Positions 23,413 through 63,565 of a DNA stretch of 64,000 nt are shown here, piece by piece. The notes beneath the pieces are model-generated. The model saw nothing but the letters and a program-made list of their open reading frames with translations. It was not told the DNA's origin and ran no database searches. Numbering within the stretch: position 1 is the first letter of the stretch; each line of letters begins with the position of its first letter. Source of the DNA: Peptococcaceae bacterium (GTDB lineage Bacteria; Bacillota; Dehalobacteriia; UBA4068; JAAVYR01); NCBI GenBank assembly GCA_022791255.1, contig JAAVYR010000007.1, positions 62,001 to 126,000 of the forward strand, read 5' to 3'. A program made the translations under genes and the position numbers.

Positions 23413-24492
23413 ATGGAAAGGACAAGACGAAAGACCAGACAAATCCATATTGGGGATGTGTCCATCGGTGGTGGGGCGCCTATCCGCATCCAGTCTATGA
23501 CTAATACCAAAACCTATGATATAGCGGCAACTCTTGGACAAATCCAAGCGTTGGCAGCGGCTGGCTGTGAAATGGTGCGCTTTGCAGTGCCAGATAGGGA
23601 AAGTGCGGCGGCGGTAAAGGAATTGGTTGCAAAATCTCCTGTGCCCCTCATTGCAGATATTCATTTTGATTATCGTTTGGCACTAGAGGTGATAGCCAAT
23701 GGTATACAGGGGTTGCGTATTAATCCCGGTAACATTGGCGGCAAAGACAGAGTGTTGGCTGTGGTCAAGGCTTGTAAAGAGCGAGGCGTCCCCATTCGTA
23801 TTGGGGTTAATGGCGGTTCGCTGGAAAAGGACCTTTTGGTTAAATACGGCGGTGTAACGGCTGACGCTTTGGTAGAAAGTGCGTTGGCCCATATTCATCT
23901 TCTGGAAGAGGCCAATTTCTTTGATATGAAAATCTCTTTGAAGTGTTCCCATATTCCCTTAATGCTAGCAGCTTATGAAAAGCTAGGGCGGCTGGTGGAT
24001 TATCCCTTTCACATTGGTGTGACGGAGGCAGGTACTGTGCGGCAGGGGACCATTAAGTCTGCTGTGGGCATTGGTGCTTTACTTGCTCAGGGCATTGGGG
24101 ATACCTTGCGGGTGTCTCTGGCGGGGGACCCAGTGGAAGAAATATTTGTGGCAAAAACCATTTTACGGTCTTTAGATTTACTACAAAATGGTGTAGAATA
24201 TATCGTGTGTCCTACTTGCGGACGGACAGAGATAGACTTGCCGGCTCTTGCGGCTCAGGTAGAAACAAAAGTAGAGCAGTTACAGATCACGGCTCCTTTA
24301 AAAGTGGCCATCATGGGCTGCGTCGTCAATGGGCCGGGAGAGGCAAGAGAAGCAGATGTGGGCATCGCCGGCGGCAAAGATAGTGGCTTACTGTTCGTCA
24401 AAGGGCAAATCGTAGGAAAATACCCTAAAGAAGTATTAGCTGATGTTCTAATCCAAAAAATCATAGAAATAGCGAAGGAGAAAGGCAAATGA
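23413..24492 (+). CDS. ispG: 4-hydroxy-3-methylbut-2-en-1-yl diphosphate synthase
   Basis: 359 aa [4Fe-4S] enzyme of the MEP pathway (GcpE). Motifs: IRIQSMTNTKTYD, the TIM-barrel stretch GLRINPGNIGG, then CPTCGRTEIDL and MGCVVNGPGEAREADVGIAG, which carry the cluster cysteines. ATG 23413 is preferred; GTG 23398 is an alternative. The stop overlaps proS by four bases (ATGA). Confidence 0.97.
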   Translation: MERTRRKTRQIHIGDVSIGGGAPIRIQSMTNTKTYDIAATLGQIQALAAAGCEMVRFAVPDRESAAAVKELVAKSPVPLIADIHFDYRLALEVIANGIQGLRINPGNIGGKDRVLAVVKACKERGVPIRIGVNGGSLEKDLLVKYGGVTADALVESALAHIHLLEEANFFDMKISLKCSHIPLMLAAYEKLGRLVDYPFHIGVTEAGTVRQGTIKSAVGIGALLAQGIGDTLRVSLAGDPVEEIFVAKTILRSLDLLQNGVEYIVCPTCGRTEIDLPALAAQVETKVEQLQITAPLKVAIMGCVVNGPGEAREADVGIAGGKDSGLLFVKGQIVGKYPKEVLADVLIQKIIEIAKEKGK

Positions 24493-26198
24493 GAGCAACG
24501 AAGCTTTATGCGCCTACACTAAGAGAGGTGCCGGCAGAGGCAGAAATCGCCAGCCATAAATTGATGTTGAAGGCGGGGTTGATTTGTAAAATCACAGCAG
24601 GAATGTATACATATCTACCGCTTGCATGGCGCGTCATGAAGAAAATCGAAGCAATTATTCGGGAAGAAATGGACGGTATCGACGGGCAGGAGCTAATGAT
24701 GCCCATCGTACAGCCGGCCGAACTATGGCAAGCTTCCGGTAGATGGCCAGTTTATGGTGAAGAAATGATGCGCCTTAAGGACCGTCACCAGCGGGAATAT
24801 TGCTTAGGGCCTACCCATGAAGAGATGATTACTTGGCAGGTGGCCCATGATTTGAAATCTTACAAGCAGCTACCTATCCGTCTTTATCAAATGCAAAGTA
24901 AATTCCGGGATGAACGGCGGCCTCGCTTTGGCTTAATGCGCAGTCGAGAATTTGTCATGAAGGATATGTATTCTTTTGATAAAGATGAGGCAGGATTACA
25001 GGCAAGCTATGACGCAGCATATGGGGCATACAGCCGTATTTTCTCTCGCTGTGGATTGAACTTCCGTCCGGTAGAGGCAGATAGTGGTGCAATCGGTGGC
25101 AGCGGCAGTCATGAATTTATGGCTTTGGCTGACTCTGGCGAAGCAGAAGTATTATTCTGCGATGGCTGTGACTATGCGGCTAATGTAGAAATTGCCGCCC
25201 TTCCACCGGAAAAGGCGGTAGCAGCAGAAGCAAAAGCCATAGAAGAAGTAGTGACGCCTGATTGCGGTACCATTGAAGCTGTTGCAAATTTTTTGGGGCT
25301 GGCTACTCATCAAACAGTGAAATCTCTCTGCTATCAGGCAGATGATGAATTTGTCTTAGTGCTTATCCGCGGGGACCGTCACTTAAACGAAGTGAAACTG
25401 CAGAACGCCTTAAACTGTGTGGAGCTGTCCATGGCTACAGATGAAGCCATTGTTGCTCATGGTTTGGTAAAAGGGTTTATCGGGCCGGTGGGCGTAAAAG
25501 GCATTAAAATCGTTATTGATGAAGAAGTATCTTTCATGGTCAATCAAGTAGTAGGCGCTAATAAAAAAGATTGTCATTTGCTGAATGTGAACTTAGGCAG
25601 AGATTACCAGGCTGATATTATCGCAGATGTAAGATTAGTTGGCGCTGGGGACGCTTGTCCGCACTGTGGCAAGGGACATTTGCAATCTGCCCGTGGTATC
25701 GAAGTAGGGCAAGTTTTCAAACTCTATACTAAATACAGTGAAAAGCTAAAGGCCGTTTACCTAGATGAAAATGGTGTAGAAAAGCCTACTGTCATGGGAT
25801 GTTATGGCATTGGCGTCGGGCGGACCATGGCGGCTCTCATCGAGCAAAGCCATGACGAATATGGTATTATCTGGCCGATGGCCATCGCTCCTTATCAGGT
25901 GGTTATCGTACCGGTCAATGATAAGGATGCTGCCATCACTGCTTGTTGTGAGGACCTTTATCAAGCTCTAACTGCAGCCGGTATCGAAGTGGTGCTGGAT
26001 GATAGAAAAGAACGCTCTGGGGTGAAGTTTAACGATGCGGACTTAATCGGTTACCCCATTCGTGTGACGGTAGGTACCAAAGGATTGGAAAAGGGTATCG
26101 TTGAAGTGAAGTATCGTCATAATGGAGCTGTAGAAGAAATCGCTGTAAAGGAAAGTGCAGCCTACATCAGTGACAAAGTAAAAGAAATGTTAAAATAA
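24489..26198 (+). CDS. proS: Prolyl-tRNA synthetase
   Basis: 569 aa bacterial-type class II synthetase. Motif 1 region GQELMMPIVQPAELW, motif 2 FRDERRPRFGLMRSREFVMKDMYSFD, an inserted editing (INS) domain at about 220-400, and motif 3 GCYGIGVGRTMAALIEQ, followed by the anticodon-binding domain (PYQVVIVPVN...). The ATG overlaps the ispG stop, so translation is coupled. Confidence 0.98.
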   Translation: MRATKLYAPTLREVPAEAEIASHKLMLKAGLICKITAGMYTYLPLAWRVMKKIEAIIREEMDGIDGQELMMPIVQPAELWQASGRWPVYGEEMMRLKDRHQREYCLGPTHEEMITWQVAHDLKSYKQLPIRLYQMQSKFRDERRPRFGLMRSREFVMKDMYSFDKDEAGLQASYDAAYGAYSRIFSRCGLNFRPVEADSGAIGGSGSHEFMALADSGEAEVLFCDGCDYAANVEIAALPPEKAVAAEAKAIEEVVTPDCGTIEAVANFLGLATHQTVKSLCYQADDEFVLVLIRGDRHLNEVKLQNALNCVELSMATDEAIVAHGLVKGFIGPVGVKGIKIVIDEEVSFMVNQVVGANKKDCHLLNVNLGRDYQADIIADVRLVGAGDACPHCGKGHLQSARGIEVGQVFKLYTKYSEKLKAVYLDENGVEKPTVMGCYGIGVGRTMAALIEQSHDEYGIIWPMAIAPYQVVIVPVNDKDAAITACCEDLYQALTAAGIEVVLDDRKERSGVKFNDADLIGYPIRVTVGTKGLEKGIVEVKYRHNGAVEEIAVKESAAYISDKVKEMLK

Positions 26199-26320: not shown

Positions 26321-26364
26321 ACAGAAAGGGCAGCTTACAGGGTCTTGTCCCTTTCTGTTTTTTG
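26321..26364 (+). terminator. Terminator between proS and the PolC-like gene
   Basis: ACAGAAAGGG/CCCTTTCTGT stem with a T run. It separates the degenerate polC gene from the proS operon. Confidence 0.85.
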
Positions 26365-26409: not shown

Positions 26410-29400
26410 ATGTGGCAGCAGAAAATCGCAGCAGCATATGAAAAGGTAACAGGTGTAGCTGATTTACCTGATTGGCTGAGTCAGGTCGTTTGGCAAAAGG
26501 TAGAGTTACATAAAAAGAGCAAGTTGTGCCGGGTCGTGTATCAGCGGCAGGTGGTCTTTAGGCCAGAAGAGCTGCAACAGTTAGAAATGGTTTTCCATTC
26601 GTTATTGCCTTCTGGTATCCAGATAGAAATCGTAAAAGATGAGGCTATAATGGAGATGGAACCGAAGCAGGAACAATCATCTGAGCCGCAAGCAGCAGAG
26701 GAAACAGAAAAGCTCTTATCAAAGGAAGCTGTGTTAGCAGAGGCCCTGGCGGCGTTGTATGAGGCAAAGCCAAAAGCAAAACTATGGCTGCTTTCTTGTG
26801 AATATACTTGGCAGGAAGAAAATCAGTTGCAGATTTCTTTTCCTTCCCAAGTGGCGAAAGATACCTGTGGAAAGTTGCAGGTTGGCGTTTTTTTGGAAAA
26901 CGATTTAAGTAGCAGGCTAGATTGCCATTGTCAAGTGAAGCTTTGCTATGAACAGGAATTGCAGACCTCTATTATGGCGGCGGCGGAAAAACGAGAAGAG
27001 AAAATCATTGCCAGCGCGCTTACGGCGCAAAAAGTCTCCTGGGGCTATAGCGGTCCTATCTATGGCAAGTTTATCTATGATAGTCCTATTGCTATCTCAG
27101 CAGTATTCGACCGGGAAGATTTTTGTGTGGTGCGAGGGGAAATCCTCGCTGTAGCAGAAAGCAGCCTGAAAAGTGGTAAGACGGTTTACCTTTTGACCAT
27201 TTATGATGATACAGGCTATTTACCATTAAAAATCAGTGCCGGGAAAGACAAGGAATTTTTTCCGGAGCATCTGGTGCCTGGACAGTGGATTAAGTGTCGA
27301 GGGAAATATGGCATGGACCGTTTTTCTGGAGAAGTGCTGTTTTCTGTCTTTGATGTGGAGGGTATTTCTCATCCGGTATGGGGCAGTGATTTGGCGGATG
27401 AAAAACGAGTAGAATTGGCCCTGCATACCAAGGCTTCCAGTTTTGCTAGTGTGATTGCAGTGGAGCAAGGCGTCTATACAGCAGCGAAATGGGGACAACA
27501 TAGTATCGGTGTAGCAGACCGGCATAGTGTGGCGGCTTTTCCCGGATTATGGCATGCTTGTCAGGACTATGGTCTCAAGCCTATTTATGGCATGGAGCTA
27601 ATGGTGTTGGCGGCGGAACAGCCTATTGGCACGGTGCTGCTCTGGGCTAAGGACCGGCAGGGGATACCTATTCTTTATGAACTATTAAGTTTGGCAAAGC
27701 AGCATGGTCCAGGCAGACAGGAAGGAGTTAATTTTCCTGATTTATGTGATGTGTTACACCAAACAGATGGCAGACAGCATGTTTTTTGTGGACTTTTGGC
27801 AACTGACTTTACATATGAGGCTTGGCAGTCTTATTGGCAGGGACTAATTGATTATCTGGTGGTAGAGCCAGTAGAACAGGGCTTGCAGCAACAGCAAAAG
27901 GTCCTATTGCAGTGGGCAAGAGAACAGGAGCTTGGTCTTTTGGCTACAGACGCTGCAGCAAGCTGTAGCGACCGTCAAGGGGAAATTGTTCGCTTTCTGC
28001 GGGAAAATGGCGGTAAGACTGGGGGTGGCCCTATCCGCAAAATTACCTCTACGGATAGCTTCTTGAAGACCTTTTATTATCTGGGGGAGGATATGGCGAA
28101 ACAACTGGTTATTGAGGGGCCGGAAACGCTGTATCAAGCAGTAGAAACTTTTACTCCTGTAGCTGGACAAGCTTTAGCCTACCCTGCAAACGAGGACTTT
28201 TGGCAGACGGTACTTGCTGCTAGTAAGCAGAAATATGATGGTCTTATTCCCCAAGAGGTGCTAGACCGATTAGAAGCAGAACGAACTCTTCTTGTGGAAA
28301 AAGGTTATTACTGGCTTTATCCAGTGCTTTTGCAATTAAAAGAGCGTTATGGCGGACTGTTCCTACAGGACCATTTATTGACGAGCTATGTGTTGGGGCT
28401 TAGCAGGGAAAATCCTTTATCCCATTTTATCTATTGTCAGGATTGTGGTTTTTCAGGGACCGGAGCAGGTTTCCTTTGCCCAAACTGTGGTCGGCCTGTA
28501 AAAGAATTTGGCATGGGAACAGCGACAGAAGATCTTTTAGCTCCTGAGGCCTTGCAAAAAATCTATCTTTGTGGCTTGCCAGAGAATAAAGAACTTCTTT
28601 GGCAAGACTTGGCCGTGCTGTTAGTGGATTGTCAGCTGATGGCACCAGGTGTTTATCGGCGTTTGTCCTGGGATAGTGTAGAGGCTATGGCAGAGCTTTT
28701 TCTCTCGGGGGAAAAACGAGAGGAGCTTCCCGGGGAGCGTCAATGGTTTGCAGCTGTTTGCCAGGGGATGTTGTTGGGTGTGGACCGGGATGATGACGCT
28801 CGTCTGCTTATTCCAGAACAAGGGCATATTTATGAGATTACGCCTGTTTTAACGGCAGAGGGTTGTTTCTATACTTATTATCCAGAAGAGATCTTAAGTG
28901 ATTTTGTGTTATCCCTTCATTATCAGGCAGCGGCGCAGCAGCAGTTATTTTGGGATATTTATCGCCTGCTACCTGATTATCGTCAGGTGGAAGTGATGCA
29001 GGCGAGAGATTGGTCGGATGGGGCTGTCTGGCATATGCTAAAGAAGCATTATTGGCAGGGGGTTCCTTATCTGGAGCAGTTTGCAGCTAGCGGAGAGATT
29101 AGCTCTGTAGAGGATTTTGTGCGGGCTGTGGCCCATAGCATAGGGATGCTGTCGGGGGCGCCAGATGATTTTAGGGATGATAACTCACTGTCATCTGAGG
29201 AAGTAGTGGCTGTTACAGATGAACAGGTAGACAAAAGCGAAGCGGCTGTTTCAGCGGAGACTGCAGCATTTCAGTCTGTAGAGGGGCTTTTGCAACAGTT
29301 TGGTGAGGAAATCGGTCTTACCTGGGATATTTGCCGAATGAAGGCTTATTCTCCAGAAGTTTTCTATACGGTGGTGTTAAATAACTTAGCAGACCGTAGC

Positions 29401-29748
29401 AGTTTCCGCGATATGTGGCAAGAAAAAACTGCTCCTATCGGTGTCTTAGGGCAAATTATTACAGAAATGAAGGAGCAGGGGATTGGGGTATTGCCCATCG
29501 ATGTGAATGGTTCAGAACAGCATAAGTTTATTTTAACAGAACAAGGAATATTGGCTTCTTTGGATAGTACGGCTGCTTTTGACCAGGATTTAATCAAGCA
29601 AATAGCGGTACACCGAAAGCAAGAAAGATTTTCTTCCCAAAGGGATTTCTTTCATCGGCTGAGTATTTCTCCTCATTTGCAACATTTGTTTTTAACAGAA
29701 CATCTTTTGGGGGAACTACCAGAAGATAGCCAGACTAGTTTATTCTAA
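26410..29748 (+). CDS. PolC-like protein lacking exonuclease and polymerase catalytic motifs (predicted pseudoenzyme)
   Basis: 1112 aa against ~1440 for typical PolC. It aligns co-linearly with PolC. There is an N-terminal domain (~1-75), a variable region, and an OB fold (~236-320, VVRGEILAV...LLTIYDDTG). The PHP domain starts at ~332 (KRVELALHTK, AAKWG, AAFPGLWHACQDYGLKPIYGMEL), followed by the SFLGEE-like DSFLKTFYYLGED. Next come the thumb-like EVLDRLEAERTLLVEKGYY, a C4 zinc site (C676, C679, C690, C693) and a PolC-like C-terminus ending QTSLF. Missing are the DEDD exonuclease insertion, PHP metal ligands (HLH is ALH; DH is DR), the GSRGSVGSS motif and the DIDLNF catalytic aspartates. The reading frame is intact, so it is probably a functional non-enzymatic protein rather than a fresh pseudogene. 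ATG has AAAGGA 9 bases upstream. Confidence 0.85.
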   Translation: MWQQKIAAAYEKVTGVADLPDWLSQVVWQKVELHKKSKLCRVVYQRQVVFRPEELQQLEMVFHSLLPSGIQIEIVKDEAIMEMEPKQEQSSEPQAAEETEKLLSKEAVLAEALAALYEAKPKAKLWLLSCEYTWQEENQLQISFPSQVAKDTCGKLQVGVFLENDLSSRLDCHCQVKLCYEQELQTSIMAAAEKREEKIIASALTAQKVSWGYSGPIYGKFIYDSPIAISAVFDREDFCVVRGEILAVAESSLKSGKTVYLLTIYDDTGYLPLKISAGKDKEFFPEHLVPGQWIKCRGKYGMDRFSGEVLFSVFDVEGISHPVWGSDLADEKRVELALHTKASSFASVIAVEQGVYTAAKWGQHSIGVADRHSVAAFPGLWHACQDYGLKPIYGMELMVLAAEQPIGTVLLWAKDRQGIPILYELLSLAKQHGPGRQEGVNFPDLCDVLHQTDGRQHVFCGLLATDFTYEAWQSYWQGLIDYLVVEPVEQGLQQQQKVLLQWAREQELGLLATDAAASCSDRQGEIVRFLRENGGKTGGGPIRKITSTDSFLKTFYYLGEDMAKQLVIEGPETLYQAVETFTPVAGQALAYPANEDFWQTVLAASKQKYDGLIPQEVLDRLEAERTLLVEKGYYWLYPVLLQLKERYGGLFLQDHLLTSYVLGLSRENPLSHFIYCQDCGFSGTGAGFLCPNCGRPVKEFGMGTATEDLLAPEALQKIYLCGLPENKELLWQDLAVLLVDCQLMAPGVYRRLSWDSVEAMAELFLSGEKREELPGERQWFAAVCQGMLLGVDRDDDARLLIPEQGHIYEITPVLTAEGCFYTYYPEEILSDFVLSLHYQAAAQQQLFWDIYRLLPDYRQVEVMQARDWSDGAVWHMLKKHYWQGVPYLEQFAASGEISSVEDFVRAVAHSIGMLSGAPDDFRDDNSLSSEEVVAVTDEQVDKSEAAVSAETAAFQSVEGLLQQFGEEIGLTWDICRMKAYSPEVFYTVVLNNLADRSSFRDMWQEKTAPIGVLGQIITEMKEQGIGVLPIDVNGSEQHKFILTEQGILASLDSTAAFDQDLIKQIAVHRKQERFSSQRDFFHRLSISPHLQHLFLTEHLLGELPEDSQTSLF

Positions 29749-42068: not shown

Positions 42069-45000
42069 ATGGGAGAATTTGTTCATTTACATAATCATAC
42101 AGAATATAGCCTGTTGGATGGTGCAGCAAGAATAAAAAACCTCATAGCTAGGGCTAAAGAACTGAATATGTCTGCCATTGCTATTACCGACCATGGGGTG
42201 ATGCATGGGGTAGTAGATTTTTATAAAGAAGCGTTGAAAGAGGGATTAAAGCCTATTATTGGCTGCGAGGTATATGTTGCGCCTCGTACTCGTTTTGACA
42301 AAGAACCCCGCAAGGATGACTCTGCTTTTCACCTTATCTTGTTGGCAGAAAACCAAACAGGCTACGAAAATCTTTGTAAAATTGTTTCCTTTGCTTCCTT
42401 AGAAGGGTTTTATTATAAACCGAGAGTGGATAAAGAGTTGCTTCGGGAATACCATGAGGGGATTATTGCTCTTTCTGGTTGTATTGCAGGACAAGTATCC
42501 CAGTCTCTTTTGGCCGATAAATATGAAGAAGCAAAAGCTATTGCCAAAGAATATAGTGAGATTTTCGGAGAAAATAACTATTTTATCGAAATCCAGCAGC
42601 ATGGCATGGAAGAAGAGCACATTGCTAACCGGGGTCTTATCCAGATTGCGAGAGAGTTAAACCTGCCTCTGGTTGCTACCAATGACTTGCACTATGTCAA
42701 TAAAGAGGACGCCCTGGCTCATGATATTTTGCTGTGTATTCAGACGGGGCGGGTGCGGGACGACGCTAACAGGATGCGGTTTCCTAGTGACGAGTTTTAT
42801 TTGAAAAGCGCGGAAGAAATGGAGCTGCTCTTTGGCGAATACCCAGAAGCACTGGAAAATACGGTAAAAATCGCGGAGCGGTGCCATATCGAGTTTGAAT
42901 TTGGTCACCTTTATTTGCCTCGCTTTGATGTACCGGAAGGCCACACCTTAGATACCTACCTGCGGGAATTATGTGAAGAAGGTATGGTAAAGCGGTATGG
43001 CGTTGTTACACCGGAGCTGCAGGAACGACTGGATTATGAATTAGATATTATTAAGACTATGGACTTTTCCGGTTACTTCCTTTTGGTGTGGGATATGATT
43101 AACTTTGCCCATAAGGAAGGTATCTATGTAGGGCCGGGGCGTGGTTCTGCGGCAGGGAGTATCACTGCTTATAGCTTAGGGATTACCAATATTGACCCTA
43201 TTCGTTATAATCTGTTGTTTGAACGGTTCTTAAACCCAGAACGGGTAACGCCGCCGGATATTGATACGGACTTTTGTTATGTACGCCGATTAGAAGTGGT
43301 TGACTATTTATTTCGGAAATATGGACAAGACCATGTGGCCATGATTATCACTTTCGGTACCATGCTTGCCAAAGGGGTAATCAAGGATGTGGGCAGAGCT
43401 CTGGATATGCCCTATAGCGAGACAGACCGTATTGCCAAGATGATACCGGCAGAGCTGGGGATTACCCTGACAGACGCCATGAAGAAAAATCCGGAACTTC
43501 AAGAAGCATACGATACAGAGCCGGCGATTAAAGAGTTAATTGATATTTCTTTGCAGCTGGAAGGTATTCCTCGGCATTCTTCTATCCACGCGGCAGGTGT
43601 GGTAATCGCCCAGAAAAAAGTAATCGACTATATGCCGGTAATGAAGACTTCAGATAATATCGTTGTGACCCAGCTGCCCAAAGAACAGGTGGAAGAACGA
43701 GGCTTAGTAAAAATGGACTTGCTTGGCTTGCGGACTTTGACGGTTATCGGGGATGCGGTTGCTAATATCAAACAAACTCATGGCATTGATATCGATATCC
43801 ATAATATCGCTACTGATGACCCAGCTGTGTATGAAATGCTTTCTCGTGGGGAGACTGGAGGGGTATTCCAGTTAGAAAGCGATGGGATGCGTGGTATTCT
43901 CCGTAACTTGCAGCCAGAACGTTTTGAGGACTTAATCGCTGTTGTTGCCTTGTATCGTCCAGGACCGTTAGGCAGCGGCATGTTAGATGACTTCATTGCG
44001 CGGAAACATGGGTTAACAAAATCCACTTATTTACATCCAATCTTAGAACCGATTTTAGAAGAAACCTATGGGGTTATCCTTTATCAGGAACAGGTTATGC
44101 AGATTTCCTCTCGGATGGCTGGTTTTACCTTGGGGGAAGCGGACCTTTTACGCCGAGCTATGGGGAAGAAGAAACCGTCTATTATTGCAGCGAAAAGAAA
44201 AGACTTTGTTGACGGGGCCAAAAAGAATGGCGTATCTGAGAAAATCTCTGGGGAAGTATTCGACTTAATGGCCTATTTTGCAGGGTACGGCTTTAATAAA
44301 AGTCACTCGGCGGCCTATGCTTTTGTAACCTATGAAACGGCCTGGCTGCGCTGTCACTATCCAGTAGAATACATGGCGGCGCTCCTGACTAGCATCATGG
44401 ATAACATGGATAAAGTACCGGAATATATCGAAGAGTGTCGTAACTCTGGTATTTCTGTGTTGCCGCCAAACATCAATGAAAGTCGTTCCGACTTTACCGT
44501 ATCTGGTGAAAATATCCGCTTTGGTCTGGGTGCTGTGAAAAATGTAGGCAAAGACGCTGTAAAAATCATTATCCAAGAACGAGAAGCCAATGGTAAATTT
44601 ACCTCCATTATGGATTTATGTGAACGGGTGCCGCTAAATAAGAAAATGCTGGAAAGCCTTATCAAATGTGGTGCCTTAGATGGCTTGGGACATAACCGTG
44701 CCCAAATGTTGGACGCCATGGAAAACCTTTTAGAAGTTAGCAGAAAGATTGCCGAAGAGAAAAACTCTAATCAACTGTCTTTATTTGATTTTGGTATGGA
44801 AGAAGCAGAAGCTTCAACCATTGACTTTGCCATGCGGGATATGCCAGAATTTTCAGAGCGGGAGCTCCTTGCCATGGAAAAGGAAATGATTGGCTTCTAT
44901 GTGAGTGGTCATCCTGTTATGGTCTATGAGGAAATCTTCCAGAAGAAAGGCCTCATGAATGTGGGGGATGTGCTAAAAAAAGGCCATGAAGAAAAGGTGA

Positions 45001-45452
45001 AATTAGGCGGGCTTATTACGGGTTATCGTCAGCATCTGACGAAAAAGGGCGCTAATATGGCTATGTTTAGCATAGAAGATATGCGGGGTTCTATTCGTTG
45101 TCTTGCTTTCCCGAAGGTGTTTGAACAATATCGTAAAATGTTGGGTGAGGGTAGAGTGGTCATTGCTAGTGGCCGCATGAGTGTAGAAGATGAAGAGAAA
45201 AAACTCTTCATCGAAAGTGTGCAGCCGCCGCAAAAGCTCTATATCCGTCTGCCTTCTAGTACGGATAGGGCAGCCTATGACCAAGTCATATCGGTTCTTT
45301 CTCAAAATCAAGGAGATGTGCCGGTGAGTCTTTTCTATTCGGATATTGCTCAATATAGAGAACTACCGGAACAGCTATGGGTACTAGCCAATCGTCAGGT
45401 CTTGGGCGAGATGGAAGAACGCTGGGGTGCCGATAATGTTATCTTAAGATAA
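42069..45452 (+). CDS. dnaE: DNA polymerase III alpha subunit DnaE
   Basis: 1127 aa, full length. The PHP domain keeps its metal residues (HLHNH at the N-terminus, ITDHG), so it may be an active PHP nuclease. Catalytic aspartates are in PDIDTDF (396-402) with a third in VKMDLLGLRTLT; GPGRGSAAGS precedes them. QLSLF at 902-906 is a clamp-binding motif, followed by a helix-hairpin-helix/OB region (VKLGGLITGYRQHLTKKGANMAMFSIED). It is the only intact replicative polymerase in the window, which matters because the PolC-like gene is degenerate. Confidence 0.97.
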   Translation: MGEFVHLHNHTEYSLLDGAARIKNLIARAKELNMSAIAITDHGVMHGVVDFYKEALKEGLKPIIGCEVYVAPRTRFDKEPRKDDSAFHLILLAENQTGYENLCKIVSFASLEGFYYKPRVDKELLREYHEGIIALSGCIAGQVSQSLLADKYEEAKAIAKEYSEIFGENNYFIEIQQHGMEEEHIANRGLIQIARELNLPLVATNDLHYVNKEDALAHDILLCIQTGRVRDDANRMRFPSDEFYLKSAEEMELLFGEYPEALENTVKIAERCHIEFEFGHLYLPRFDVPEGHTLDTYLRELCEEGMVKRYGVVTPELQERLDYELDIIKTMDFSGYFLLVWDMINFAHKEGIYVGPGRGSAAGSITAYSLGITNIDPIRYNLLFERFLNPERVTPPDIDTDFCYVRRLEVVDYLFRKYGQDHVAMIITFGTMLAKGVIKDVGRALDMPYSETDRIAKMIPAELGITLTDAMKKNPELQEAYDTEPAIKELIDISLQLEGIPRHSSIHAAGVVIAQKKVIDYMPVMKTSDNIVVTQLPKEQVEERGLVKMDLLGLRTLTVIGDAVANIKQTHGIDIDIHNIATDDPAVYEMLSRGETGGVFQLESDGMRGILRNLQPERFEDLIAVVALYRPGPLGSGMLDDFIARKHGLTKSTYLHPILEPILEETYGVILYQEQVMQISSRMAGFTLGEADLLRRAMGKKKPSIIAAKRKDFVDGAKKNGVSEKISGEVFDLMAYFAGYGFNKSHSAAYAFVTYETAWLRCHYPVEYMAALLTSIMDNMDKVPEYIEECRNSGISVLPPNINESRSDFTVSGENIRFGLGAVKNVGKDAVKIIIQEREANGKFTSIMDLCERVPLNKKMLESLIKCGALDGLGHNRAQMLDAMENLLEVSRKIAEEKNSNQLSLFDFGMEEAEASTIDFAMRDMPEFSERELLAMEKEMIGFYVSGHPVMVYEEIFQKKGLMNVGDVLKKGHEEKVKLGGLITGYRQHLTKKGANMAMFSIEDMRGSIRCLAFPKVFEQYRKMLGEGRVVIASGRMSVEDEEKKLFIESVQPPQKLYIRLPSSTDRAAYDQVISVLSQNQGDVPVSLFYSDIAQYRELPEQLWVLANRQVLGEMEERWGADNVILR

Positions 45453-50951: not shown

Positions 50952-51857
50952 GTGAGAAAGAAATTTTTAATTGCTGTCAGTGTGGCCTTTTCTGTTGCAG
51001 CGTTTGCCCTGCCGTGTTATGCGGCCCAGAAAATTGCCATTACCCTGGATGGTGTGCCGCTCTCCACGGAAACCGCGCCTGTTATCATTAAAGGCCGGAC
51101 TTATGTGCCGGCTCGCGTCATTGCTGAGAACTTAGGCGCATCTGTGGACTGGCAGAATAACAGCGTCATTATTTCTGCTGCTACCGGCGAAGTCATCACC
51201 CTGCCTATGGGCAGCAAAACGGCAACTAGCTCATATCCAGATGGGGTGGATGAGACAGGAGAAACTTATACGGCAGTTGGTACTTATACGCTGGATGTGC
51301 CTGCTCGTACCGTAAACGGCAGAGCTATGGTGCCTTTGCGGGATATGGGTCTCTTAATGGGGGCAAATGTCGATTATGTAAAGGGTACGGTCATTATTAC
51401 GACTGTTCCTTATCATATCAATGACAAACCTGCTGAGCTGACTTATGAGTGGCACATGACAGCAGGCAGCAGTATCAATCAAATGAAAGGCAATATGAAC
51501 ATCGGACAAATGCATTATTGGCTGACAGAAGGCAAAGGGGTAGAGGTAGCGGCGCCTGTTTCTTATGGTTGTAATGTCAATCTGGACCCGCCAAACTATT
51601 ATTACCTAGACAAGCACTATCGTTTCTATACGGACGGAATAGATATTACCAAACCGGGACAGGAAAATATGGATGTCTATACCCATACTTCTTATGATGG
51701 TAATCCCATTCCCGAAGGGTATAGCCAATTTCTCTTACATGATGTAGACCAGGATAAATGGTATCAATTTGACGCTGAAATTCATGAAAAAATTGATAAT
51801 TTTCTGTTGAACCTAGGCGACGATATGTGGGAAAACTTATCTAATACCATTCTATAG
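50952..51857 (+). CDS. Secreted stalk protein with copper amine oxidase N-terminal-like domain (copy A)
   Basis: 301 aa, GTG start with GGAAGG upstream. Signal peptide ends around LPCYA|AQK (residue ~24). Residues ~28-160 hold two repeats of the Cu_amine_oxidN1-type fold (DGVPLSTETAPVIIKGRTYVPARVIAENLGASVDW; GRAMVPLRDMGLLMGANVDY). The C-terminal ~140 residues are unrecognised and shared with copy B. Despite the domain name, no amine oxidase catalytic domain is present. Confidence 0.87.
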   Translation: MRKKFLIAVSVAFSVAAFALPCYAAQKIAITLDGVPLSTETAPVIIKGRTYVPARVIAENLGASVDWQNNSVIISAATGEVITLPMGSKTATSSYPDGVDETGETYTAVGTYTLDVPARTVNGRAMVPLRDMGLLMGANVDYVKGTVIITTVPYHINDKPAELTYEWHMTAGSSINQMKGNMNIGQMHYWLTEGKGVEVAAPVSYGCNVNLDPPNYYYLDKHYRFYTDGIDITKPGQENMDVYTHTSYDGNPIPEGYSQFLLHDVDQDKWYQFDAEIHEKIDNFLLNLGDDMWENLSNTIL

Positions 51858-51883: not shown

Positions 51884-52783
51884 ATGAAGAAATTTTTACT
51901 TACGCTGGGTGTGGCCTTTTCTGTTGCTGCGTTTGCTCTGCCTTGCTATGCAGCACAAAAAATCTCTATTACCTTAGACGGTGTACCACTTTCCACAGAT
52001 GTTGCTCCCGTGGTGGTGAAGGGCCGTACCTTAGTCCCTGCTCGCGTTATTGCAGAAAATATGGGGGCAACGGTAGACTGGAAAGATAATAATGTCATTA
52101 TCAATTCAGCTACTGGTGAAGTGATTACACTACCGGTGCGGAGCAATATCGCTACTGCGAAAAACCCAGATGGCACTACCAGTAAATATCAGCTGGAAAC
52201 GCCAGCGCAAACCAGAAATAACAGAACAGTGGTACCTCTTCGATTTATTGCCGAAAGCATGGGGGCCAATGTGGATTATAAAGACGGTAAGGTAACCATT
52301 ACCACCAATCCTTTGGTTATTAATACAAAGACGATTACTTCTATGACCTATACTTATTGCATGACCATGGGTGGCAGTATTTCTGAGTTTAAGGGCAACA
52401 ACAATCTATATCAATTCTATAATCTAATCCAAGCAGGGAAGGGTGACCCGGTTGCTGCGCCTGCTTACTATGGCAGACATATAGACTTAGACCAGGAATA
52501 TTTCTATTACCTGCAGGGGAATTATCGTTTTTATGCTGAACCTGTTGTCATTAATGAAGCGGAAAATTATATCAGCGACGGCGCGGTGAATTATGCACTT
52601 TATGGGGCATTGACAGGTGAACACCGTAAAACGCCGGAGGGATATGGTCAAATGTTGCTCCATGATGAAGACGCCGACCAATGGTATACCTTTGATACTG
52701 ACTGCTATGAACAGATAGAGAACTTTCAGTCCAACCTGTGGGTAAGTGATATGCGAAAAGAAATCTTTAATAATATCGCATAG
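51884..52783 (+). CDS. Secreted stalk protein with copper amine oxidase N-terminal-like domain (copy B)
   Basis: 299 aa, 26 bases after copy A and clearly its paralogue along the whole length: nearly identical signal peptide (VAFSVAAFALPCYAAQKI), same domain pair, and related C-terminal part (YYYLDKHYRFY versus FYYLQGNYRFY; MLLHDEDADQWYTFD versus FLLHDVDQDKWYQFD). Tandem duplication followed by divergence. Role unknown; probably cell-surface. A terminator follows. Confidence 0.87.
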   Translation: MKKFLLTLGVAFSVAAFALPCYAAQKISITLDGVPLSTDVAPVVVKGRTLVPARVIAENMGATVDWKDNNVIINSATGEVITLPVRSNIATAKNPDGTTSKYQLETPAQTRNNRTVVPLRFIAESMGANVDYKDGKVTITTNPLVINTKTITSMTYTYCMTMGGSISEFKGNNNLYQFYNLIQAGKGDPVAAPAYYGRHIDLDQEYFYYLQGNYRFYAEPVVINEAENYISDGAVNYALYGALTGEHRKTPEGYGQMLLHDEDADQWYTFDTDCYEQIENFQSNLWVSDMRKEIFNNIA

Positions 52784-61131: not shown

Positions 61132-61201
61132 CTAAAAACACTTGTATCATTATGATTTGTTTTACTGGGGCTGTATATTGCAATTTAGGAGGGTTTCGGG
61201 A

Positions 61202-63565
61202 ATGAAACGAAAATTAACAAAATACCTAAGTGTGCTTTTGGCGGTATGTCTGATTACTGTCATTACACCGATTACAGCTTCGGCAATGCAGGTTTTTGTA
61301 AAAACGCTGACAGGAAAGCATATTACATTGGAAGTGGAGCCGACAGACCGAATTGAAGATATAAAAGCAAAAATTCAGGATAAAGAAGGCGTGCCTCCTG
61401 ATCAACAGCGGTTGGTTTTTTCAGGCAAACAGCTTGAGGACGGCAATACGCTTCAGGATTACAGTATTCAAAAGGATAGCACAATACATTTGGTTTTGCG
61501 CCAAAACGTATCTATAAAATTAGGCGATTATGTACAGATGGGCACCTATGATACAGACGGCGACGGTACAGCTGAACCTATTTTGTGGCGGTGCGTTGCG
61601 TTTGAGAAAGCAACGCGTCAGGCAGACGGTTCTCTTAAGATTGACTCGACGGTGACCAATAATGCATATCAGGCAGTGGGAGATGCAGAAGGGGATACTG
61701 GATATCTTCCGCTTATGCTTGCAGACTCTTTAATATGCAAAAAAGAATTTGACGCAAATGGCGAAGGCACCAATGGTTCACACGGTAGAGATACCGAGAT
61801 CAGAAAAAATGATGGTTCAAACTATTGGGGCGATAGCAATCTCCGTGATTGGCTTAATTCCTCTAAAAAAGCAGGAAGTATCGTTTGGTCTTGCGGTAAT
61901 GCCCCGTCTTATGCAAACGAAGCCGGCTTTTTAACGAACTTTACTGCTGCGGAAAAGGCGGCAATGCAAACTGTCCTACAGAAAACGACTCTGACAAAAG
62001 CGGATATTGGGCTTACGGACAAAACAGGCTCGGAACTATATGAGCCAGAACAAGAGATTGCTATTGTTGTGCAAAATTACAGCACAGCGTATTCCCAGTG
62101 GTTTACGGATACCATGTTTCTTATGGATACCCAGCAACTATACAATGTGTATGTCAATGACGCTGCTCTTGGTGGTGGGGACTACTATTATAGTGACGAC
62201 AACTCCGGCGACTTGTTGCGCACACCGTTTTATTATACAGGGGCTCCTTCCCGGTATGCATATTGGAACATTATGGTGATAGCGTATGCAGATATAGCAG
62301 ATGGTACGCCTATTTTGTACCCCACTGGTCCTTTCAATGATGGGCGCGGTGTACGTCCTGCGTACTATCTTAATCCTCAAACGGAGTTAAGTGGAAAAGG
62401 GACAAAAGCAGAACCATATGTAGTAATGCCAGGGCACACCCATAGGCTGAAGCACTATGAGGCTATTGCAGCAACGTGCACCACAAGTGGGAACAGTGAA
62501 TATTGGCAATGTTTAGACTGTGATAAGCTATTCTCCGATGGGGCTGGAACAGTGGAAATAGACGCTGTTCCCGCAATCGCTGCAAAGGAACACCACTACG
62601 GTAAGTGGGCATTAACTTCCAGTGGAACAACGACAATGGTTGTTAGAACTTGTGAAAACGATAACAAACATCAGGAAAAGCGAAACGCGGAAATTCAGCT
62701 TATCATACCGAAGCCATATATATACAATGGCGAGGAATGTAAACCAAATGTGACTGTGAAGGTTTTTCATGGCAGCGAAGAACTTGTACTTACAGAAAAT
62801 ATCGATTATGCGCTCAGTTATGAAAACAATATCAATATCGGTACGGCAACAGTTAAGATTACCGGTATGGGCGATTACAGTGGAGCGGTAGTAAGAAAGT
62901 TCAGCATTCGTGGCAAAACCCTTGCTGCAATCGGTGGGGGAACTGATGAACCGGCGCAAGAAACAATCGTTGCGCCTGAAGTAACGCAGCACCAAGCCTA
63001 TATTGTAGGCTATGCAGATAACAAGTTTATTCCCGATGGCAATATGACAAGAGCGGAAGCGTCTGCGATATTTGCACGTCTTACGGATGGCTTTGATAAA
63101 GACGCCAGCTATGCAACATCTTTTGCCGATGTTGACAGCTCACTATGGTATGGGGATTATATTGGCTTTGTAGAAGGGCAAAATATTATAACAGGCTATG
63201 AGGATGGAACCTTTCACCCTGAAAATAATGTTACTCGTGCAGAATTTGCAACGATGATTATGCGTTTTATAAAATTAAGTGAGGCTACAGATAAGGATAC
63301 ACTATTTGTTGATATCAGCGGTCATTGGGCTCAGAAGCAAATTACAGCTTGTTATTATGAAAAATACATAAAGGGATATGCAAATAACTTGTTCCGTCCG
63401 GATGATTATATCACTCGCGCTGAAGTGGTGACGATTATCAATCGTGTGCTCGATAGAAAGGATATGAAAAATACCCAAAATCCTTTTACGGATGTAACGA
63501 CAGGTCATTGGGCATATAAGGATATTCTTGAAGCGGCGGTTACCCATGATGTAGAAAATAACTGA
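61202..63565 (+). CDS. Secreted surface protein: signal peptide, ubiquitin domain, DUF6273-like region, SLH repeats
   Basis: 787 aa. ATG 61202 has AGGAGG 8 bases upstream; the frame is open to 61142, but that extension is not needed. Residues 1-28 are a signal peptide ending A-S-A. Residues 29-100 are a ubiquitin domain (58 of 72 identical to human ubiquitin as I recall it). All seven lysines (K6, K11, K27, K29, K33, K48, K63) and L8/V44/H68/V70 are kept, but Q-N-V-S replaces the C-terminal L-R-G-G. Residues ~103-409 resemble DUF6273 ([28 protein letters not shown]), ~410-490 a His/Cys linker module ([25 protein letters not shown]), ~500-575 a beta-rich module ([12 protein letters not shown]...[15 protein letters not shown]). 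From ~592 there are three SLH repeats, each with TRAE. Predicted wall-attached by SLH. It follows the ABC importer by 70 bases and may share its transcript. Confidence 0.93.
61286..61501 (+). other. Ubiquitin domain coding segment
   Basis: Codons for ubiquitin positions 1-72 lie exactly here, starting with ATG (Met1) directly after the signal-peptidase site. Differences from human ubiquitin are at 3, 12, 20, 22, 25, 26, 36, 44, 46, 54, 57, 60, 64 and 67, mostly conservative. Confidence 0.93.

Follow-up and report, generated by a model that had tools for sequence, protein, structure and literature searches.

Evidence for a catalytically inactive yet preserved PolC homologue in a bacterium of the class Dehalobacteriia

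Introduction

Families B, X and Y are known to include DNA polymerases that have lost their active site (PMC2527604, PMC2669801, PMC12926913). For the C family, a survey of about 2000 genomes described the catalytic aspartates as absolutely conserved (PMC3919608). That survey kept only sequences with an intact active-site region and discarded fragments whose active site was not intact, so a PolC that had lost its catalytic residues would have been invisible to it. In the open-access literature searched, including passages of two C-family surveys, we found no C-family polymerase described as inactivated. Here we analyze a candidate, a gene at positions 26410-29748 (+ strand) of a 64,000-nucleotide stretch (the window) of contig JAAVYR010000007.1 from a Peptococcaceae bacterium (assembly GCA_022791255.1). 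The gene lies where polC is expected and encodes a 1112-residue PolC homologue. Our results suggest that in this gut-type bacterium an intact gene in the polC place encodes a product that is catalytically dead yet preserved, and that this product now serves the replication machinery as a structural component.

In B. subtilis PolC the clamp-binding motif is located at the extreme C-terminus, and strains without the motif were unobtainable (PMC12309361). A role of the PolC N-terminal domain in binding the clamp loader has been proposed, and PolCs without an exonuclease have been published for Clostridia and Negativicutes (both PMC3919608). The window genome belongs to the uncultured order UBA4068 of the class Dehalobacteriia, whose other orders are Dehalobacteriales and the likewise uncultured UBA7702 (PMC10327494).

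Results

The preliminary description of the window had reported an open reading frame (ORF) of 1112 residues with PolC domain order located after proS, and the ORF, the profile matches and the locus order agree with this. The protein, which has an ATG start, matched the PolC profile NF001688 with an E-value of 1.5e-55 and 188 bits, the best stretch being residues 21-406, and TIGR01405 with 147 bits. Both scores are below the NCBI curated PolC cut-offs (873 and 1043 bits), whereas the intact PolC of Candidatus Formimonas warabiya (L123), a member of the same class, reached 1621 and 1478 bits. The DnaE equivalog cut-off was also unmet (NF004226, 49 bits vs 1002). In Pfam searches the PHP and HHH_6 domains scored above their cut-offs and the OB and DNA_pol3_a_NII domains below theirs, while the polymerase core (DNA_pol3_alpha, PF07733) and the finger domain (PF17657) gave no match. 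In L123 the core, finger, PHP, OB and helix-hairpin-helix (HhH) domains were all above cut-off. The solved structures nearest in sequence were those of PolC. Homology to PolC by descent is thus indicated by the domain order, the C-terminal clamp motif and the position downstream of proS (24489-26198, +), which was identified from the ORF list and by profile search.

All parts of the gene are given on the + strand. A PolC-type N-terminal domain (residues 1-189; 26410-26976), recognized by the sub-threshold NII match and in a structure model, is followed by an OB-fold region (residues 190-326; 26977-27387) with a sub-threshold OB match. The PHP-like domain (residues 327-545; 27388-28044), assigned from Pfam and alignment, has no exonuclease insertion. 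Further downstream are a four-cysteine zinc site (C676, C679, C690 and C693; 28435-28488), a shortened and degenerate palm/fingers remnant (residues 701-975; 28510-29334), and an HhH and C-terminal part (residues 1014-1112; 29449-29745) that ends in QTSLF (29731-29745), a clamp-binding motif of the QxxLF type as predicted from sequence. This motif is identical in the two congeneric species.

To compare catalytic motifs we used an alignment with 45 intact PolCs, which we selected from 80 loci. Of 207 columns at least 95% uniform in the intact set, the window copy shares the residue of the intact proteins in 68, has another one in 110 and a gap in 29, and overall the protein is about 18-20% identical to PolC. 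In the PHP domain ELHLHT is changed to ELALHT and AITDHGV to GVADRHS (TDH to ADR). Three of the nine metal ligands (H339, D370 and E396) are kept and six are changed, based on positions that we mapped to alignment columns from the published consensus HHDHEH[C/H]DH (PMC12926913). The polymerase P-loop VGSRGSVGSS is replaced by YGGLFLQDHL (28348-28377). The palm motif PDIDLN, positioned within the palm remnant at 28555-28572, reads QKIYLC, QKICIC or QKITLC in the three degenerate rows of the alignment. The third aspartate, in KLDILGH, is lost in the window sequence SLHYQAA and is histidine in all three rows. P-loop, both palm aspartates and third aspartate are therefore replaced in all three rows, and a more distant homologue in genome G006 likewise has neither the palm aspartates nor the third. 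Retained are the N-terminal domain, the OB region, the PHP scaffold, the zinc cysteines, the HhH region and the final QTSLF.

The alignment thus bears out what had been noticed initially about the PHP residues, the GSRGSVGSS region and the DIDLNF aspartates, as well as the persistence of the zinc site and C-terminus. Loss of the catalytic residues makes it well supported that the protein is catalytically inactive. The missing exonuclease insertion, also correctly noted at first, does not serve as a sign of an inactive PolC: four intact PolCs of the class (L121, L123, L132 and L082; 1224-1288 amino acids) have none either, so its absence is uninformative. An exonuclease motif pattern that failed on the majority of full-length PolCs was set aside.

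An AlphaFold2 (AF2) model built from an alignment of 48 sequences, 45 of them intact PolCs, had a pLDDT of 79.8 and a pTM of 0.64. Foldseek matched it to the PolC structures 3f2c and 3f2b (E-values 1.9e-48 and 3.5e-48), and the superpositions gave a Z-score of 38.3 with 839 and 844 residues aligned at rmsd 7.2 and 7.1. Because the intact PolCs in the alignment pull the prediction towards PolC, the model is a consistency check and no independent proof. The PolC fold was recovered with intact PolCs in the alignment, but a model from the three degenerate sequences alone failed (pLDDT 40.9) and was too poor for use. The claim of lost catalysis rests on the alignment.

The genome, which is 96.8% complete, contains a single DNA_pol3_alpha match, which is DnaE, encoded at 42069-45452 (+) of the window with a complete domain set. 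PF07733 likewise matched once each in the two congeners and G006, in every case DnaE. Searches of the window genome and the relatives with PF07733 and the PolC model found no second, intact polC. DnaE, the only C-family polymerase core found, would thus be the active replicase of this organism, as judged from its domains.

To examine selection we estimated w (dN/dS) with pairwise codon models. The window genome (G000) and the congeners G001 and G002 form family f1; the G002 copy is locus L119, and that of G001 lies in two pieces on separate contigs (L120 and L040). For G000-G002 w was 0.112 (1085 codons, dS 2.0), and for the two G001 pieces 0.110 and 0.090; these values are approximate because dS is near saturation. 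A value of 1 was rejected for G000-G002 (2dlnL=528), and in a neutral simulation at only 0.05 substitutions per site none of 400 copies remained free of stops (mean 7.6 stops). For comparison, w was 0.006-0.010 for DnaE, 0.03-0.04 for ProS, 0.024-0.025 for RecA, 0.106 for RecX and 0.045-0.146 for RadC. Among 12 pairs of intact PolCs, eight had usable dS and gave w of 0.016-0.14. The degenerate gene is inside this range, but well above four intact pairs with dS of 1.4-3.7 (w 0.016-0.033). That the gene is under purifying selection and not decaying, as had been proposed from its open frame, is well supported.

The distribution of constraint along the protein is inverted, with the OB region strongest, the C-terminal part next and the former catalytic core evolving fast. 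Region-wise fits with runaway dS were left out of the w values; this concerned PHP and HhH of G001, residues 976-1013 of G002 and several intact pairs. In the degenerate pairs the OB region is 94% and 91% identical with w of 0.022 and 0.027, and the HhH/C-terminal part is 79% and 71% identical with w of about 0.04 (G000-G002). The former core is 67% identical in G002 and 62% and 51% in the G001 pieces, and the N-terminal domain has a w of about 0.17. Intact pairs of the class show the reverse order, with OB identities of 68, 60 and 57% vs 89, 88 and 83% for the core (OB lower in 3/3). The OB region was also below the core in 11 of 12 other intact pairs that we picked, the exception being L173-L177 (97 vs 95%). 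Synonymous sites evolve about as freely in the OB region as in the other regions (dS 1.5-1.9), which places the constraint there at the protein level. The pattern suggests loss of catalysis with preservation of nucleic-acid and clamp contacts, for which it is the one expected.

A protein search of 43 genomes of the class (E up to 0.001) found matches in eight: the window genome, its two congeners (identities of 69% and 61-63%), the f5 genome G006 (L038; 27%) and four intact PolCs of family f6, to which Candidatus Formimonas warabiya belongs. G006 encodes a shorter degenerate PolC in an open frame of 851 amino acids. In the other 31 of the 35 genomes of the order searched, some of them incomplete, the degenerate protein had no match, and none of the 35 has a PolC above the family cut-off, which fits the initial proposal that the lineage abandoned PolC as replicase. 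In the window the gene order is proS, degenerate polC, a gamma-carbonic-anhydrase-like ORF and recA. G006 has proS, a GT2-like ORF, the degenerate polC, two further ORFs, the carbonic-anhydrase-like ORF and recA. Three f6 genomes have proS, a GT2-like ORF and intact polC; the fourth (L079) has no GT2-like ORF between. Locus gene names other than proS were assigned by eye. No polC-like ORF follows proS in other genomes of the order whose contigs extend past proS.

A broader scan found 383 relatives. Among the best 80, the P-loop motif was present in 76 and both P-loop and PDIDLN in 75. The exceptions were L119 and L120 from the congeners, L154, which runs off its contig, and two interrupted frames, L192 (read to the stop) and L198 (P-loop only). 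None of the three copies from the genus has catalytic motifs in the part that could be read. Of 199 genomes from the phylum searched with a profile, 165 gave matches, of which only the best places were listed; among the short frames within these listed matches no further inactive PolC was established, which does not show absence elsewhere. Candidates rejected here were G073 (short frame running off the contig), G232 (interrupted frame, then a second frame off the contig with core matches), and G112, G122, G116, G086, G130 and G070, which carry PolC-type core matches. The weak match of G007, a member of the order, is its DnaE.

Two side observations came from these scans. PolC frames are interrupted inside the contig in L192, L198, L137 and L210 (Listeria riparia, a Lachnospiraceae metagenome-assembled genome, Desulforamulus aquiferis and G232), which may be sequencing errors or broken genes. 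Intact PolCs of exonuclease-less size were present in L130 (1219 amino acids) and L134 (1230 amino acids), on contigs titled candidate division FCPU426, by name outside Bacillota.

The timing of inactivation was examined with a species tree of six concatenated markers and 39 taxa, in which f1 and f5 were sisters with support 1.0. Support was weak for the node joining f1 and f5 to f3 and f4 (0.50) and for the branching order among the species of f1, three in number (0.25). In the PolC gene tree the degenerate sequences of G000, G002 and G006 formed a clade with support 1.0, which long branches could inflate. At 59 columns conserved in intact PolCs and changed in both degenerate families, the same new residue occurs in 13, whereas shuffling gave 4.8 on average and never more than 11 (0/2000 shuffles as high). 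Because of the two trees and the 13 shared derived residues, a single inactivation before the split of f1 and f5 is well supported by the sequences.

In the four genomes with a degenerate PolC (G000, G001, G002 and G006), the clamp-loader subunit DnaX (L216-L219) carries an additional acidic tail at its C-terminus, which contains PPEE and EEDLPW motifs, the latter similar to the tip of single-stranded DNA-binding protein (SSB). SSB of G000, G002 and G037 ends in DDDVPF or DDDLPF, and the DnaX motifs have W for F. The tail was found in 4 of 14 DnaX compared, all of f1 or f5, and was absent from ten of other families. DnaX lengths were 631-645 amino acids in f1 and 694 in f5 vs 348-570 in the ten others, where two f6 frames begin late (the f6 open frames are 522-585). 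Since f1 and f5 are one clade, the tail may reflect shared ancestry only. In addition, DnaX of G004 and G010 (L223 and L224, family f3) has only 348-349 amino acids and is missing the tau-like C-terminal part; no PolC was found in this family either.

The spacing is 211 bases between proS and the degenerate polC and 42 bases to the next gene. Between proS and the degenerate polC lies a perfect 10-bp inverted repeat (26321-26358, +) whose loop is 18 bases long; a T run comes after it, and it could be a terminator-like or leader element. The terminator scan allows loops of 3-8 bases only and missed it. Because of this terminator-like repeat the gene may have its own transcription.

Elsewhere in the window, an ORF at 61142-63565 (+) encodes an 807-amino-acid protein with a signal-like start (by eye), a ubiquitin domain, DUF6273 and S-layer homology repeats. 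The ubiquitin domain (PF00240, E 9e-29, residues 51-121) looks very close to eukaryotic ubiquitin. Two adjacent similar ORFs (50952-51857 and 51884-52783, +) resemble a tandem duplication, the first having a copper amine oxidase N-terminal domain. In the same genome a DnaQ-like exonuclease match (G000:C1:233484-234017) contains one in-frame stop, likewise in several relatives, perhaps only because the match extends upstream of the start codon.

Discussion

We consider it probable that the degenerate PolC was inherited vertically, inactivated once, and retained by selection as a non-enzymatic part of the replisome beside the sole replicase DnaE. With DnaE as sole replicase of the lineage, PolC would have lost its polymerase activity before the two sister families split. 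The protein would dock on the sliding clamp via the C-terminal QTSLF, while DNA would be contacted by the HhH region and by the OB domain with its strong conservation, and the N-terminal domain may hold the clamp loader. In this place next to DnaE the protein might provide a scaffold or help to hand off DNA. Since the C-terminal clamp motif is kept and a clamp-loader role has been put forward for the PolC N-domain, we regard it as a putative accessory of the DnaE replisome that is docked on the clamp and touches DNA. That it binds DNA and clamp is inferred from its homology and its motif; a scaffold function and a partnership with the clamp loader are speculative.

Several observations weigh against this interpretation. 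No other gene reaches the dN of the degenerate polC in the comparisons with G001 (19 genes) and G002 (13 genes), and selection was measured within one genus only, in three genomes at dS of about 2-3, near saturation. The absence of a match in 31 genomes of the order implies that these can do without the function or have replaced it. The N-terminal domain, which would contact the clamp loader, ranks with the fastest-evolving parts, and G006 lacks the second half of this domain. G006 also has no zinc cysteines, and its terminus is QLSIFDV instead of a free QxxLF. The OB domain could bind RNA or protein rather than DNA. A more specific proposal, that this is the first C-family pseudo-replicase, a PolC turned, in a lineage whose replication DnaE had taken over, into a clamp-bound scaffold that grips single-stranded DNA through its OB domain and works with the extended DnaX, has the acidic DnaX tail of f1 and f5 in its favor but is tentative and in our judgment rather doubtful.

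A role away from the fork deserves serious attention, although we hold it to be the less probable explanation. The protein would then have been recruited as an OB/KH-type nucleic-acid-binding regulator or as a repair or clamp-unloading factor. This would agree with the strongest constraint being in the OB region and not in the clamp motif alone, with the fast evolution of the polymerase scaffold, and with the presence of RPA-like, PolD DP1 and tRNA synthetase OB folds among the structural neighbors of the OB region. It is at odds with the strong conservation of the C-terminal part with its clamp motif and HhH region; the gene is also still placed after proS, although position is a poor guide to function. 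That the protein is still an active enzyme whose catalytic residues have moved, as in archaeal PolB2, seems very improbable. Predictions of inactivity can fail, and PolB2 itself was predicted to be inactive and later shown to polymerize (PMC8764526). Here, however, palm motifs, third aspartate and P-loop are all replaced in the copies covering them, and the core is shortened, matches neither PF07733 nor PF17657 and is surpassed in conservation by another part.

A decaying pseudogene that is open by chance would explain the highest dN among the neighboring genes compared, the few residues in common with intact PolC and the lack of matches in other families of the order. It is even less credible than relocated residues, since the frames are open in three species at dS of about 2-3 with w about 0.1 and a second family holds an open 851-residue frame. 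For the genus the pseudogene explanation is rejected by dN/dS and by the simulation, in which stops appeared at a far smaller distance. Least plausible of all is an artefact of assembly or binning in which polC was joined to something else as a chimera. The named copies are metagenome-assembled and that of G001 is on two contigs, but the same design and neighbors occur in the window, on a 134-kb contig, and in two metagenome-assembled genomes of other species, with L119 full length and L120 reaching the contig end. These separate copies refute an artefact.

The class shows several stages together: intact exonuclease-less PolC, inactive but selected PolC, and genomes in which no PolC was found. 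The question of PMC3919608 whether DnaE1 can replicate alone in bacteria with PolC and DnaE1 thereby becomes testable, as does the non-catalytic share of PolC. A polC-like gene is no proof of a polymerase, which in our opinion also bears on predicted sensitivity to PolC inhibitors.

ImuB binds the sliding clamp. Like the degenerate PolC, it and other inactive Y-family proteins are dead relatives of polymerases found beside a C-family polymerase (PMC12926913); ImuB differs in belonging to the Y family and in its role in mutagenesis. Inactivated B-family polymerases (archaeal enzymes, PMC2527604; the C-terminal half of Pol epsilon, PMC2669801) also have lost the active site and have a proposed structural role beside an active polymerase, but represent another polymerase family, and the dead half of Pol epsilon is fused to a live half. 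With the PolCs of B. subtilis and G. kaustophilus the protein shares the place after proS, the order N-terminal domain, OB, PHP, Pol3 remnant and HhH, the zinc site and QxxLF, whereas P-loop, palm aspartates and exonuclease are missing and the PHP metal site is broken. The f6 PolCs are the nearest intact relatives by taxonomy and are likewise exonuclease-less and located downstream of proS. In contrast to the degenerate PolC, their catalytic motifs are intact and the core is their most conserved region.

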